Assembly: GCF_038022665.1 (NCBI RefSeq)
Contig: NZ_CP150629.1
Span: 2,462,480 to 2,526,479, forward strand
Source: Methanolobus sp. WCC4
Lineage (GTDB): Archaea > Halobacteriota > Methanosarcinia > Methanosarcinales > Methanosarcinaceae
DNA: 64,000 nt
Direction of reading: 5' to 3'
The notes under the pieces were generated by a model. That model saw nothing but the letters and a program-made list of their open reading frames with translations, was not told the origin of the DNA and did not search any database. This document shows positions 11,878-63,554 of this stretch, piece after piece. The position numbers and the translations under genes are program-made. Every line of letters begins with the position of its first letter. Position 1 is the stretch's first letter.

Positions 11878-12271
11878 ATGAGGGATCGCTTTTGTTGATG
11901 CTTACAGAGAAACAGTACAGATAACTGAGAATATCGGGGAACAAAACGACAGGGATGTCAGAAAGACGATCGAAGGACTTCCACCTTCTGCAAAACTCGT
12001 CTTTAAGGTTCTCGAATATGGCGGACTCCTTACACAAAAGGAGATAGCCGAACAAAGTTACCTGCCTCCACGTACCATCAGATATGCACTTGGCAGACTG
12101 AAGGACGAGGATTTCCTGCAGGAAAGGTTCTATTTCAAGGATGCAAGACAAAGCCTCTATGGCCTGAAGAATGTGCCGGACATTGGAAGAACTCCAATGG
12201 ACGATGCTCCGAAAATAGAACAGAGGATGCTAAATATGAATGCAGAGAATTTTGAACTCGCAGTCATGTGA
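11878..12271 (+). pseudogene. Winged-helix transcriptional regulator with +1 frameshift after codon 5 or 6
   Basis: AAGGAG at 11862-11867 precedes ATG 11878, but this frame stops at TGA after six codons. A +1 shift leads into a 125-codon frame (from GTT at 11894 to TGA 12269-12271) encoding a clear HTH protein. A helix-turn-helix region TQKEIAEQSYLPPRTIRYAL is followed by a wing (LKDEDFLQERFYFKDARQSLYGL), as in MarR-like archaeal regulators. The main frame has no ATG, GTG or TTG near its beginning. The shift lies near GGG or TTTT runs, so it could be a sequencing error, a recent mutation, or programmed slippage at CGC-TTT-TGT-TGA. The reading frame downstream looks fully preserved. Confidence 0.7.
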
Positions 12272-39483: not shown

Positions 39484-39498
39484 GGAGTTTTTACCATT
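39484..39498 (+). promoter_or_regulatory. SD and ATT start of the response regulator
   Basis: GGAG at 39484-39487 is followed by an 8-nt spacer and then ATT 39496-39498. There is no ATG, GTG or TTG between the upstream in-frame stop (39439-39441) and ATG 39544. The receiver's first beta strand and acidic pair (HKILIVDDE) are encoded upstream of that ATG, so translation must begin near ATT. Confidence 0.75.
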
Positions 39499-40356
39499 AC
39501 AACTGCTACTGATCACAAGATCCTCATCGTCGATGATGAGATAATGAACATCGAATTACTTAAAGCATATCTTGAAGATAAATACGCTGTTGTCAGTGCT
39601 ACCAATGGAAATGAGGCACTTCAGCTTGTCCCTGAAGAAAGACCGGACGTGATACTTCTTGATGTAATGATGCCGGACATCAATGGGTATCAGGTATGCG
39701 AACAATTAAAGGCAGACCCTGCAACACAGTTCATTCCTGTGATAATGGTCACTGCACTTTCCGGAAGGGATGACTGGATAGCCGGAATAGAGGCTGGTGC
39801 TGATGAGTTCCTCACAAAACCAGTGAACAAGATGGAACTGCTCACACGCATAAACTCATTGCTTAAACTGAAGAAGATGCATTATGACCTTATGGCCGAG
39901 AGGGACAAACTGGGGCTGCAGAACAAGATCAGGTCCGTGCTCACACAGATAATCCCTGCTCTGCTTAAAACACTGCCTCCAGAGCAGAAAAGTGTCGTCA
40001 TACACCAGATGATCGATATGGTAGTGGAGTCTATTCTTGAGAATACTGACCCTGAGAGTGACATCGTTGGTGTTGAGTGCGTGGGCGATATCTGCTGCCA
40101 GATAATAAACCAGCTTGGAGCAGAGTTCGAAACAGAGACAAAACCCGATGGCAACACCATTTGTACGATACAGGGACACACCTGCCCATGGGGAAAAGAA
40201 GAAGCCCAGATGAACCCGATACTCTGTACCCTTTCACGAGGGATATTTGCCAGAATACTGGACATCTATGGACAGGATATGGAAGTTGACGTGCTCGAGA
40301 CCATGGGTAATGGAGACGAGCAGTGCGTATTCCAATTGAATAAGATGGATTACTGA
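39496..40356 (+). CDS. Response regulator with C-terminal methanogen output (MetOD1-like) domain
   Basis: A 286-residue protein if translation begins at ATT 39496. The receiver domain occupies about residues 1-130: KILIVDDE at 8-15, phosphoacceptor Asp56 in [14 protein letters not shown], and Lys108 in FLTKPVNK. A helical linker leads to an about 145-residue C-terminal domain with conserved CxxxC-like and GHTCPWG cysteines, resembling the methanogen output domain 1 seen with archaeal receivers. Starting at the first ATG (39544) would remove strand 1 and the acidic pair and destroy the receiver. Its 3' end overlaps the convergent purE by 7 bp. It probably partners KaiC-like or PAS-kinase proteins encoded nearby. 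Confidence 0.88.
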
Positions 40357-58085: not shown

Positions 58086-58892
58086 TCAGGACCTATCATA
58101 GTTCTCTGAGGTCTCCCATTTAGCATTAAGCAGGTGGGATATGGTCTGAGAGAATTCCCCCGCGCTGGCCCATACAGCCGTAAGGTCGGTTTCCCCATCT
58201 TCCTCTTTCAGGATCTCTACGATGATCTCGCTGCCATCCACAACTATTACGAAGCTTTTGAGGTCCATGCATGTATCCCTTGCAGAATTCACTTTGACAG
58301 ATGCAAGAGGGACCAGATCACAGAGCCTTCTTGCCTCTTCCTCGTCTGAACTGATGAACCTTACACTGACACATTCATCATTGATCTTCTTATTGAATAT
58401 ACCAGTGATCGTTGCATAGTCCTTTTTGAGGGAAGGGTACTGTTCTGCAAGTATACGGAAAGGTGTTGATGAACTCATTACCAGTATGTCCTTTTTAGCA
58501 CCCCTGGCCATTTGTATGACCTTATCGGTGACGTTCCTGACACCTTTGATGGTCCAGACCGGGCCTTCATTCCTTTCACCAGTGGAAACACCATACATCC
58601 CCTTTAGCTCTGAGAGGACCGCAGCACATTCTCCCTCATAGTTAGTTTTTAGTTTTGCGATCGCTTCCTCAGGAGGAAGACATCTGTAACGCATCGGTTT
58701 TGTATTCTGGAATTCGATGATGCCTCTTTTTTCCAGTTTTTTAAGAGTACCATAGATAGCAGAATTAGGAACACCGGAATCAAGATGTAACGTTGATACC
58801 GTGGCACTTTCGTTCTTCACAAGAGCTGCATAGACCTTTGCTTCATATGATGTGAAACCGAGGTTCTGAAGAGATATAAAAAGAATGGAAAT
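58086..58892 (-). CDS. TrmB family transcriptional regulator
   Basis: A 268-residue regulator if translation begins at ATT 58892. The N-terminal winged HTH reads SLQNLGFTSYEAKVYAALVKNESATVSTL, then SGVPNSAIYGTLKKLEKRG. The C-terminal half is a ligand-sensing domain as in TrmB proteins. ATT has GGGAGG 8 nt upstream. The only canonical upstream start, TTG 58910, has no SD and lies before that SD. It is fourth in the six-gene operon, so it probably controls its own operon. Ligand unknown. Confidence 0.87.
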   Translation of the reverse strand: MSILFISLQNLGFTSYEAKVYAALVKNESATVSTLHLDSGVPNSAIYGTLKKLEKRGIIEFQNTKPMRYRCLPPEEAIAKLKTNYEGECAAVLSELKGMYGVSTGERNEGPVWTIKGVRNVTDKVIQMARGAKKDILVMSSSTPFRILAEQYPSLKKDYATITGIFNKKINDECVSVRFISSDEEEARRLCDLVPLASVKVNSARDTCMDLKSFVIVVDGSEIIVEILKEEDGETDLTAVWASAGEFSQTISHLLNAKWETSENYDRS

Positions 58893-58906
58893 AGTATCTG
58901 CCTCCC
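58890..58906 (-). promoter_or_regulatory. SD and ATT start of trmB
   Basis: GGGAGG at 58906-58901, spacer CAGATACT (8 nt), then ATT at 58892-58890 on the minus strand. This is one of three such ATT sites in the window. Confidence 0.7.
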
Positions 58907-58934
58907 ACAAAAATAAGAAAGAAAGAGAAGAGGA

Positions 58935-60051: not shown

Positions 60052-61179
60052 TCACTCCGATCGATCCTCTGATCTCTTTGATCTGTTCGATCCATTATTC
60101 CTTCTATTTTTGATAATCAGTACTATTCCCATAACCACAAGTCCTGCAATTGCAAGGCCTGTTATGTTAAGCTGGTTCTCAGGTTGTTTAAGGTCAACAT
60201 TTACCTTCATATTCTCAGAAAAAGCGGTTTCACCGTCTTCATCAGTATATTTGATTTCACTGTCAAGACCATAGTTCTTTTCAACTGCCTGGAAATCAGA
60301 AGTAATATCAAATGATACGGTCCTGCTTTCACCAGGAAGCATCGTACCAATTGACCTCACTGACCTGTCGGTACTCAATGGTTCCATTACTATCAGTCTT
60401 GCAACTGCATCTTCTGCGGTAAGCTCACCAATATTCGTATAGGTTATATTGACAGTACCAGTGCTGCCTGCTGTCAGGTTCCCTGATACACTGCTTATAT
60501 GGAATTTAGCTTCAGGCATGACTATGACAGGTATCTGGATGGTCTGTTCCACCGTTTCGTAATAGGTCGCATGGTCCAGATCCGGCATTCCAAGTCTGAT
60601 GGACTCACCATCTGTCATTCTTACATCCTGTGCATATTCATAGTTCAGAGGCATTTCCAGAACATATACCCCTGCAGGAGCATTGTCCGAGATCGTGACC
60701 GTGAAGGTGAAAGGATCTTCGGACAGGTCGCCAGGAAGCAGTTCATCCAGTGTCTGACTGCTTGTAGCAGCATCTACCTCTATCAGGTCGGTGGAAGATA
60801 CAAGACTTGCTTTTATCCCGTATGCTGTTGTTCTTTGAGTTTCATACTGTAACTCTGTGAGAGATACCTGATGATCGCCTTCAGAAGTACCGATGACCGT
60901 GTCGGCTTTGAAACCGTAAAGTACTCCTTTGTTGGATAGTACGACCTTTATCTGGGCGGTCTCACCACGGTCGAACTCTGTGTCTCCGAGAACCGAAGCA
61001 TATAGGTCAGGCTCCCCGTAGGCCTTGTAGTAATTATTCGTATATTCGTAGGTAGGTGGCAGGTATTCCTTTGCAGCTACCGAAGGCATCAGCACAAAAG
61101 TAGCTGCGAGGAGAACACATACCACTAAGGGGATGATATACAATTTTGATCTGTTGATTTCTTTGATTGTGCCATTCAT
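60052..61179 (-). CDS. COG1361-type S-layer/NEW3 domain envelope protein (paralogue 1)
   Basis: A 375-residue exported protein with a signal anchor (LYIIPLVVCVLLAATFVLMPSVAA), two Ig-like domains (RGETAQIKVVLSNKGVLYGF; GSTGTVNITYTNIGELTAEDAV) and a C-terminal membrane helix (ITGLAIAGLVVMGIVLII). An Arg/Ser/Asp-rich tail (NRSKRSEDRSE) is encoded by short GATC-rich repeats. Its ATG overlaps the transporter stop (ATGA), so the two are translationally coupled. It lies between the RND transporter and its paralogue. Confidence 0.88.
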   Translation of the reverse strand: MNGTIKEINRSKLYIIPLVVCVLLAATFVLMPSVAAKEYLPPTYEYTNNYYKAYGEPDLYASVLGDTEFDRGETAQIKVVLSNKGVLYGFKADTVIGTSEGDHQVSLTELQYETQRTTAYGIKASLVSSTDLIEVDAATSSQTLDELLPGDLSEDPFTFTVTISDNAPAGVYVLEMPLNYEYAQDVRMTDGESIRLGMPDLDHATYYETVEQTIQIPVIVMPEAKFHISSVSGNLTAGSTGTVNITYTNIGELTAEDAVARLIVMEPLSTDRSVRSIGTMLPGESRTVSFDITSDFQAVEKNYGLDSEIKYTDEDGETAFSENMKVNVDLKQPENQLNITGLAIAGLVVMGIVLIIKNRRNNGSNRSKRSEDRSE

Positions 61180-63542
61180 GCGGTTATAACCTCCGGAATG
61201 GTGTTTGATTCATGTGTATCGATTCTTTTGGAACTGTAACCTGCTGCCTGTGCTCTCCTTTTTTCCCTGAACTTATCAAGTGTGACAATAACAGGAGGGA
61301 ATATCACAAATGTAGCCAGCAGAGCCAGGAATACATCTATAACTGTGATCAGTCCGAAATTGCTGGTGATGCTGAACGGCGATGCGATCAGTGCAGAGAA
61401 ACCAAAGACCGTGGTTGCACCGGATGTAACGATAGCCTTTCCGATCTTCACACTGGCTTCCTCCATTGCCTGCTCGGGATCAGCACCCTTCTCCTTTTCC
61501 TCAAAATAACGCTCCATCATCAGGATGGCATATTCCGAACCCACACCAAGGATAAGTGCGCCAAGGGTCGCTGTCATCGGTGTGTACTCCAGACCGCTGA
61601 TGTACATGAGACCTCCCGCCCAGCCTACTACCACCATCATGGTTATTACCGGGGTCAAAGCCTTCAAAAGGTCGCGATATATCACTAGCAGACCTGCAAA
61701 TACCAGTACTATTCCAAGCATTGTCATCATGACCCTGCCGGATGTCAGAGCGGTTATCACTTCAACGAAGACGACGGAATTTCCGGTTATAGTTACTGAG
61801 GTTCCGGGAGGTGGTGCCATCCACAGTATATCCTCTTCCACCACATCGGTAAGTTCTCCGATACCCATAAGTCCAAGCTCGCTCATTGCATTGCCGATCT
61901 CCAGATTCACCAGGATTATGGAATTCCCGTGAAGATAACTGTCCCTCTGGGTCTCAGATAGCTGCTCATATACCATGGCAACTTCTGCCGAACTGTCAGG
62001 AATTGTACCTCCATTCCGGGCCTTGACCAGATCAACAATGCTGCTCGAGCCATAGATATTACTCCTTCCGTCCACTTCATGCTGCGAGAACTCATCGATC
62101 CACTCCAGCAGTTCAGGATCTGTGTTATCATCGGTCTTGATCAACAGGTTCAACTGATCCTGACCACCCAGGATATCGGCCATATGTGTCAGGTCTATCA
62201 ACGCAGGAAGATCCTGAGGTACAAAGGTCTCAGTATCCGTCTGGATGGGGACCATGGTATCAGCGACAAGTCCGCCAACACAAAGGGAAGCTGCAACAGC
62301 GATGATCAGTACCGGATGATGCATTGAGAATGTAGATATGCCTTTGAGTGCCTTTTCCAGGAGATCAGGTCCTTTTTCAATGGTTTCATGAGAGGAGGCT
62401 TTTTTGTTAGAGGATGAACTTTTCAATCCAAGTTTTGCCAGGATATTCTTCTCCGAAAGCCTATGGAAACCATATAGTACTGTGACTCCCACGAATAATG
62501 AAGACAGGAAACACATCACAATTCCGATCATCAGGAGTTTTCCGAAATCCTGTATCATGGGGACAGTGGATGTAAGCAGTGAAATGAAACCAAGTGCTGT
62601 TATTATGAGTGCGATCAGTACTGCAGGACCGGTATGTTTGATGGTGTCGATAACTGCCTCTTCATCTGAATAGCCTTCTTCCAGTTCCTCTTCAATACGG
62701 TTATGGAACTGGATGGCATAATCTATACCAAGTCCGATAAGTACCGGGAAGGCGGACATGGAGACCATTGTCATGGGAATATCCAGATAACCCATGGCAC
62801 CAAAGGTGAAAATGATACCAAGTATGACTATTGGAAGTGGAAGAAGTCTCCACCTTACATGCCTGAAGACAAGGTACAGAACGACTATCATGAGAAGAAC
62901 GGAGATCATAAGCAAAGTACCCATACTGGTATTCATTGCCTCGTTCATCTCTACCATGAATGCAGGATCACCGGTCACGATCACAGTATAATCCCCGGGG
63001 AAATTGGCCAGCTCGATGGCAGTCCTGGTTTCCCTGAGGATCTCCTCTTTAGTATCATCAGAAGTTGTTGCTTCAACAACCACTGTCATTGTTGCATGAG
63101 TCTCATCGGGCATGAAATAGGTAGGGACCGATGAGCTGATGATCTCATCAATTACTGTCTCATCATCAGGGATCTCACTCCTTCCCGTCATCTGGTAATT
63201 TGCCTCTTTGATCACAGAAGATGGCGAAACTACCTGGATCACCCCGGGAATGTTGACCGTTGATCCGTATGCCCTGTCCATCGCCTTGAGAAGTTCAGGA
63301 TTGGTTACATCACTGCCTTCTACCATTATTACGATGGATTCAGTACCAAAGAGATTCTGATAAAGGTGATCAAAATTCTGATATAGTTGAGAGTTCTTGT
63401 CTACAAAGGTATCAGTTCCTGATGCCATACCTATGTACTGGGCACCCTGAAATGATATTATCATGAAAAGCACAGTGATCAATACGATAGGTATCGTATT
63501 GTTCTCAATGAAAACACCCAGTTTTTCAAAGATATTTTTAAT
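61176..63542 (-). CDS. RND/MMPL family transporter (HpnN-like)
   Basis: A 788-residue membrane protein if translation begins at ATT 63542. Two halves each have one N-terminal membrane helix, a large extracellular loop and a bundle of five helices. RND features include GIDYAIQFHNRIEEELEEGYSDEEAVIDTIKHTGPAV in the first half and GVGSEYAILMMERYFEEKEKG...TSGATTVFGFSAL in the second. A TTG at 63482 would start inside the first membrane helix. The ATT frame restores KNIFEKLGVFIENNTIPIVLITVLF, typical for the family, with GGAG 8 nt upstream and a TAA before it. First gene of the operon; lipid or small-molecule export is likely. Confidence 0.9.
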   Translation of the reverse strand: MKNIFEKLGVFIENNTIPIVLITVLFMIISFQGAQYIGMASGTDTFVDKNSQLYQNFDHLYQNLFGTESIVIMVEGSDVTNPELLKAMDRAYGSTVNIPGVIQVVSPSSVIKEANYQMTGRSEIPDDETVIDEIISSSVPTYFMPDETHATMTVVVEATTSDDTKEEILRETRTAIELANFPGDYTVIVTGDPAFMVEMNEAMNTSMGTLLMISVLLMIVVLYLVFRHVRWRLLPLPIVILGIIFTFGAMGYLDIPMTMVSMSAFPVLIGLGIDYAIQFHNRIEEELEEGYSDEEAVIDTIKHTGPAVLIALIITALGFISLLTSTVPMIQDFGKLLMIGIVMCFLSSLFVGVTVLYGFHRLSEKNILAKLGLKSSSSNKKASSHETIEKGPDLLEKALKGISTFSMHHPVLIIAVAASLCVGGLVADTMVPIQTDTETFVPQDLPALIDLTHMADILGGQDQLNLLIKTDDNTDPELLEWIDEFSQHEVDGRSNIYGSSSIVDLVKARNGGTIPDSSAEVAMVYEQLSETQRDSYLHGNSIILVNLEIGNAMSELGLMGIGELTDVVEEDILWMAPPPGTSVTITGNSVVFVEVITALTSGRVMMTMLGIVLVFAGLLVIYRDLLKALTPVITMMVVVGWAGGLMYISGLEYTPMTATLGALILGVGSEYAILMMERYFEEKEKGADPEQAMEEASVKIGKAIVTSGATTVFGFSALIASPFSITSNFGLITVIDVFLALLATFVIFPPVIVTLDKFREKRRAQAAGYSSKRIDTHESNTIPEVITA

Positions 63543-63554
63543 GTTTAACTCTCC
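63540..63554 (-). promoter_or_regulatory. SD and ATT start of the RND transporter
   Basis: GGAG at 63554-63551, spacer AGTTAAAC (8 nt), then ATT at 63542-63540 on the minus strand. An in-frame TAA lies a few codons upstream and no ATG, GTG or TTG occurs before TTG 63482. Confidence 0.75.

Follow-up and report, generated by a model that had tools for sequence, protein, structure and literature searches.

The closest described system to the start codons reported here is the bacterial infC gene for initiation factor IF3, which starts with AUU in Escherichia coli and with ATC in Streptomyces, and which is autoregulated (PMC5472188). Also in Streptomyces, the sigR gene starts with GTC and is repressed by IF3 (PMC5472188). 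A review of Archaea lists AUG, GUG and UUG as the only start codons (PMC7531240). An ATC start has been inferred for the L12ae gene of Staphylothermus marinus (PMC2678158). Archaeal aIF1 destabilises initiation complexes on non-AUG mRNA and, according to work cited in the same article, eukaryotic eIF1 is autoregulated through a poor AUG context (PMC6237735). A literature search, from which subscription papers were mostly absent, returned no paper that reports AUU starts for methanogens or an aIF1A gene of Archaea beginning with CUG.

The genes of Methanolobus described below share with infC a conserved near-cognate start (AUU, AUC or AUA; AUH) at Shine–Dalgarno (SD) distance and, in the case of aIF1A with its CUG codon, a weak start in an initiation-factor gene. 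However, Archaea lack IF3, aIF1A is orthologous to IF1, its codon is CUG, and its repression is a model; furthermore, the RND transporter and the response regulator are not translation factors. In this last respect they resemble sigR, a gene outside translation with a conserved non-canonical start for which limited expression has been demonstrated, although sigR is bacterial, IF3-dependent and experimentally established, whereas the Methanolobus set uses other codons and is known from sequence. L12ae is likewise an archaeal gene whose odd start was found by alignment, but it is a single isolated case from one genome, in which conservation of the ATC was not demonstrated. With eIF1, as cited, the common feature would be a fidelity factor that restrains its own production by way of a weak start site, which is proposed here for aIF1A; the eIF1 case concerns the context of an AUG and a different factor.

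Start codon of the RND transporter

The window is a stretch of 64,000 nucleotides from the complete, single-contig genome of a Methanolobus species (2.85 Mb), and its relevant features are collected in Table 1. The RND transporter is a member of the HAE3 family, scoring 747 bits against TIGR00921 (curated cut-off 351.9). The reading of this frame in an earlier note on this DNA is confirmed: an in-frame TAA is followed by GGA GAG TTA AAC and then the ATT at 63542, with GGAG 8 nt before the ATT, and the first canonical codon is the TTG at 63482 (codon 21), which lies within the first hydrophobic helix. No ATG, GTG or TTG is found between the in-frame stop and the ATT, and the corresponding interval is free of canonical codons in 22 of 39 homologous loci. 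These 39 loci represent 12 genera in two families (f1 and f2), and one genome contributes three of the loci as paralogues. In every one the aligned first codon is ATA (26), ATT (8) or ATC (5), and never ATG, GTG or TTG. In a third family (f3; two complete loci and a truncated one, not counted in the 39), an ATC is located two codons earlier, at SD distance, and a paralogous transporter clade (L154-L159) carries ATG at the homologous place. Genome G036 contains three RND paralogues (L144, L148, L149) that all start with ATT or ATA, the weak start having survived duplications.

Table 1 Features of the window (strand relative to the displayed sequence)
Feature	Coordinates	Strand	Basis
HAE3-family RND transporter CDS, 788 aa, start ATT 63542-63540 (very probable)	61176..63542	-	TIGR00921 and homologue alignment
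SD GGAG (inside AAGGAG), 8 nt 5' of the RND ATT	63551..63554	-	Sequence
CARDB/NEW3-like exoprotein, next operon gene after RND	60052..61179	-	Sequence, Pfam
TrmB-family regulator, with ATT 58892 as a plausible start	58086..58892	-	Pfam TrmB
SD GGAG (GGGAGG), 9 nt 5' of ATT 58892	58902..58905	-	Sequence
Response regulator (receiver and MetOD1 output domain), start ATT 39496 (very probable)	39496..40356	+	Pfam, ortholog alignment
SD GGAG, 8 nt 5' of ATT 39496	39484..39487	+	Sequence

All 24 genus members compared possess the SD motif of the transporter at a conserved spacing. Upstream of the ATH codon, variability at codon positions 1/2/3 in these 24 sequences is 0.34/0.38/0.38; downstream of it the values are 0.16/0.09/0.45, and the switch to coding-type substitution falls exactly at this codon. 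The stop codon of the transporter gene overlaps the ATG of the exoprotein gene that follows it, so the two are probably translationally coupled. Two exoprotein-like genes succeed the transporter, followed by the TrmB gene.

Response regulator and TrmB-family regulator

The geometry that the earlier note ascribed to the response regulator (GGAG, 8 nt, ATT) is indeed present, and the next canonical codon is the ATG at 39544, located 3' of the DD motif of the receiver domain. All 26 genus members have ATT, ATC or ATA at this place, and the SD motif is found in 23 of the 25 that were aligned in detail. For the TrmB gene, the spacer was said to be exactly 8 nt as well, but GGAG stands 9 nt from the ATT and it is GAGG that stands at 8 nt. 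An in-frame TTG at 58910 lies upstream, and a canonical start is therefore not strictly absent from this gene, for which an ATT start is plausible. The earlier note proposed checking whether an ATG stands at this codon in relatives, and the outcome differs from gene to gene: never in the 39 transporter loci, in four distant relatives from other families for the response regulator, and two codons downstream in most TrmB relatives, the window gene and L062 being devoid of that ATG.

Near-cognate starts across the genome

Start codons were surveyed in 652 genes (864 kb, taken as stretches, about 30% of the genome) by scanning for coding signal 5' of the first canonical codon, followed by ortholog alignment. 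Start-codon frequencies were also estimated by EM for the full set of 61 codons, but the result was swamped by codons that are rare in coding sequence and was dropped. The survey yields near-cognate starts in about 8 of the 652 genes (~1%), including the transporter, the response regulator and TrmB; this is a lower bound because the scan misses genes with any upstream canonical codon. The "regular use" of ATT raised earlier thus overstates their frequency, as such starts are rare, though old and conserved. The recurrence of ATT starts stands for the transporter and the response regulator, where they are conserved, and is plausible for TrmB, but the set is not restricted to AUU and also includes AUC, AUA, CUG and ACG.

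The argument that identical geometry in three unrelated genes speaks against chance does not survive counting, since the window contains 8 occurrences of GGAG-N8-ATT where 7.5 would be expected. In the surveyed genes, SD motifs precede near-cognate codons in 10.0% of cases and other codons near gene starts in 10.4%; given that there is no genome-wide enrichment, near-cognate initiation is limited to a small number of genes. Geometry alone being insufficient, it is the conservation among orthologues that rules out chance for the ATT starts. RNA folding around three of the starts is no more stable than in shuffled sequences and reveals no unusual structure, which indicates that the SD is not masked.

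The LarA-family racemase, with ATC in the window genome, starts with ATC or ATT in 23 of 23 loci and has an SD motif in 21 of 21 (GGAGG in most). The FAD-dependent flavoprotein, with ATT in the window genome, has ATT in one subclade and mostly TTG or CTG in the other. For three genes, near-cognate and canonical codons are swapped at the same codon behind the same SD. The DacZ diadenylate cyclase starts with CTG in the window genome and in G017, with TTG in 14 and with ATG in 8 of 24 loci, and Mmp3 starts with ACG in 22 of 23 loci, with ATG in one (G021), and with GTG in a genome of family f2; the third is aIF1A (CTG/TTG/ATG). An ATA start initially considered for Mmp3 was rejected, as the alignment places the ACG four codons upstream.

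CUG start of aIF1A

The aIF1A gene of the window genome (genome position 2046837, minus strand) starts with CTG. Of the 65 loci whose N-terminus is complete, 55 start with CTG, 8 with TTG, one with TTA and one with ATG, and the SD is unchanged. The arrangement of GAGG, about seven bases and CTG GCN AAY TAY is kept throughout the Methanosarcinaceae, and CTG at SD distance is also found beyond this family, both within the order and in further orders of the phylum, though not in all of them (L161-L178, L261-L280). A haloarchaeal plasmid copy has GTG as its annotated start. Within Methanolobus a stop codon often stands directly before GGTATTAATCTG, and the next canonical codon in the window genome is 52 codons downstream; the gene therefore has no canonical start upstream or nearby. 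The infC parallel drawn in the earlier note is hence apt in an unexpected way: an archaeal initiation-factor gene does have a conserved non-canonical start, in the form of CUG in aIF1A, which is an IF-1A (NF003085, TIGR00523) and not an IF3 homologue. By contrast, aIF1 starts with ATG in every locus read, so the near-cognate pattern is gene-specific. The wider near-cognate set, with aIF1A in it, is of more interest than the ATT starts alone.

The window genome gives one match for aIF1A, while several Methanosarcinaceae (G036 and others) have 2 to 5 copies, most with CTG or TTG starts.

Alternative explanations

Gene finders would place the starts at TTG 63482 in the transporter and at ATG 39544 in the response regulator, and 17 of the 39 transporter loci have an in-frame GTG three codons upstream of the ATH codon, so canonical starts elsewhere have to be considered. 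This reading is very improbable. The GTG lies inside the SD, and neither the window nor 21 other loci have it; the first downstream canonical codon of the transporter falls at 12 different positions, from codon 7 to codon 38, with the skipped stretch being conserved through synonymous changes. Furthermore, TTG 63482 sits in helix 1, and a start at ATG 39544 would delete the acidic residues of the receiver. A single genome could by itself carry sequencing or assembly errors at sites that are truly ATG, but the same codon class recurs in dozens of independently sequenced species; the earlier note's claim against such error is thereby upheld, and error has a negligible probability. It is also hardly credible that these codons become proper starts through RNA editing or by means of a dedicated initiator tRNA. 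No support for either was found: the initiator-stem tRNAs among the tRNA matches of the genome are solely CAU, and one type of editing could not unify codons that deviate at position 1, 2 or 3. Taken together, the alignments make AUU starts very probable for both the transporter and the response regulator.

A different objection accepts the near-cognate starts as real and regards them as relics that drift has left in genes of low expression, devoid of regulatory meaning. Their rarity fits this view, as does the fact that DacZ, the flavoprotein and Mmp3 switch freely from near-cognate to canonical codons and back in related species. Against it, parsimony counts on gene trees over related species give a minimum of 9 third-base changes at the start codon of the transporter, 5 in the response regulator and 4 in LarA, none of them to G. 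At least 18 such changes without reaching ATG have a probability of 0.0007 if the three bases are equally likely, in what is a rough test, and suggest that the weak starts are retained by selection, which we consider likely. The CTG of aIF1A is moreover kept across the order, with ATG appearing once in 65 loci. Drift is on these grounds an unlikely account, and retention by selection is the preferred one.

Proposed mechanism of initiation

The case for near-cognate initiation is built on the position, conservation and SD geometry of the codons, the lack of an alternative start and the presence of CAU initiator tRNAs only. On the mRNA of the transporter, 16S rRNA would pair with GGAG and direct ordinary SD-dependent initiation to the AUU at 63542, where the normal initiator tRNA (anticodon CAU) would mispair with AUU, presumably inserting methionine. 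The response regulator would be initiated by the same route. Initiator-type tRNAs among the tRNA matches of the genome have the anticodon CAU only and occur as two tandem copies, from which it follows that decoding would involve a mismatch at position 1, 2 or 3. The two tandem initiator tRNA-Met (CAU) genes (L469, genome 883027-883306) are identical over the displayed stretch. SD-directed near-cognate initiation in a small set of genes thus appears quite probable, with the weak codons most likely serving to hold expression low in dependence on the stringency of start-codon selection.

With aIF1A itself started by CUG, an infC-like feedback loop is the natural model, and by analogy with infC and sigR the factor could regulate its own synthesis. 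Control of the weak starts through aIF1 and aIF1A is put forward as a tentative possibility. The fuller proposal, that methanogens of the Halobacteriota have an infC-like aIF1A CUG loop together with a regulon (the RND transporter, the MetOD1 response regulator, LarA, DacZ and Mmp3) that reads start stringency, is by the same analogy conceivable but doubtful.

Gene finders search for AUG, GUG and UUG starts. The conservation of AUH, CUG and ACG starts therefore implies that N-termini are probably misannotated across the Methanosarcinales, with a core initiation factor among the proteins affected. Whether archaeal translation, like that of Bacteria with IF3, exerts feedback through weak starts has become a testable question. 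Genetics is available for Methanosarcina, and ribosomes can be profiled there as well, as a Ribo-seq protocol exists (PMC11456600).

A winged-helix gene in the window (HTH_24, 11882-12271, plus strand; genome 2474361-2474750) also has no in-frame canonical start. An SD and an ATG lie just 5' of it in another frame (ATG AGG GAT CGC TTT TGT TGA), and the gene looks like one with an apparent frameshift caused by one extra base in TTTT, which would represent an assembly error, a pseudogene or recoding.
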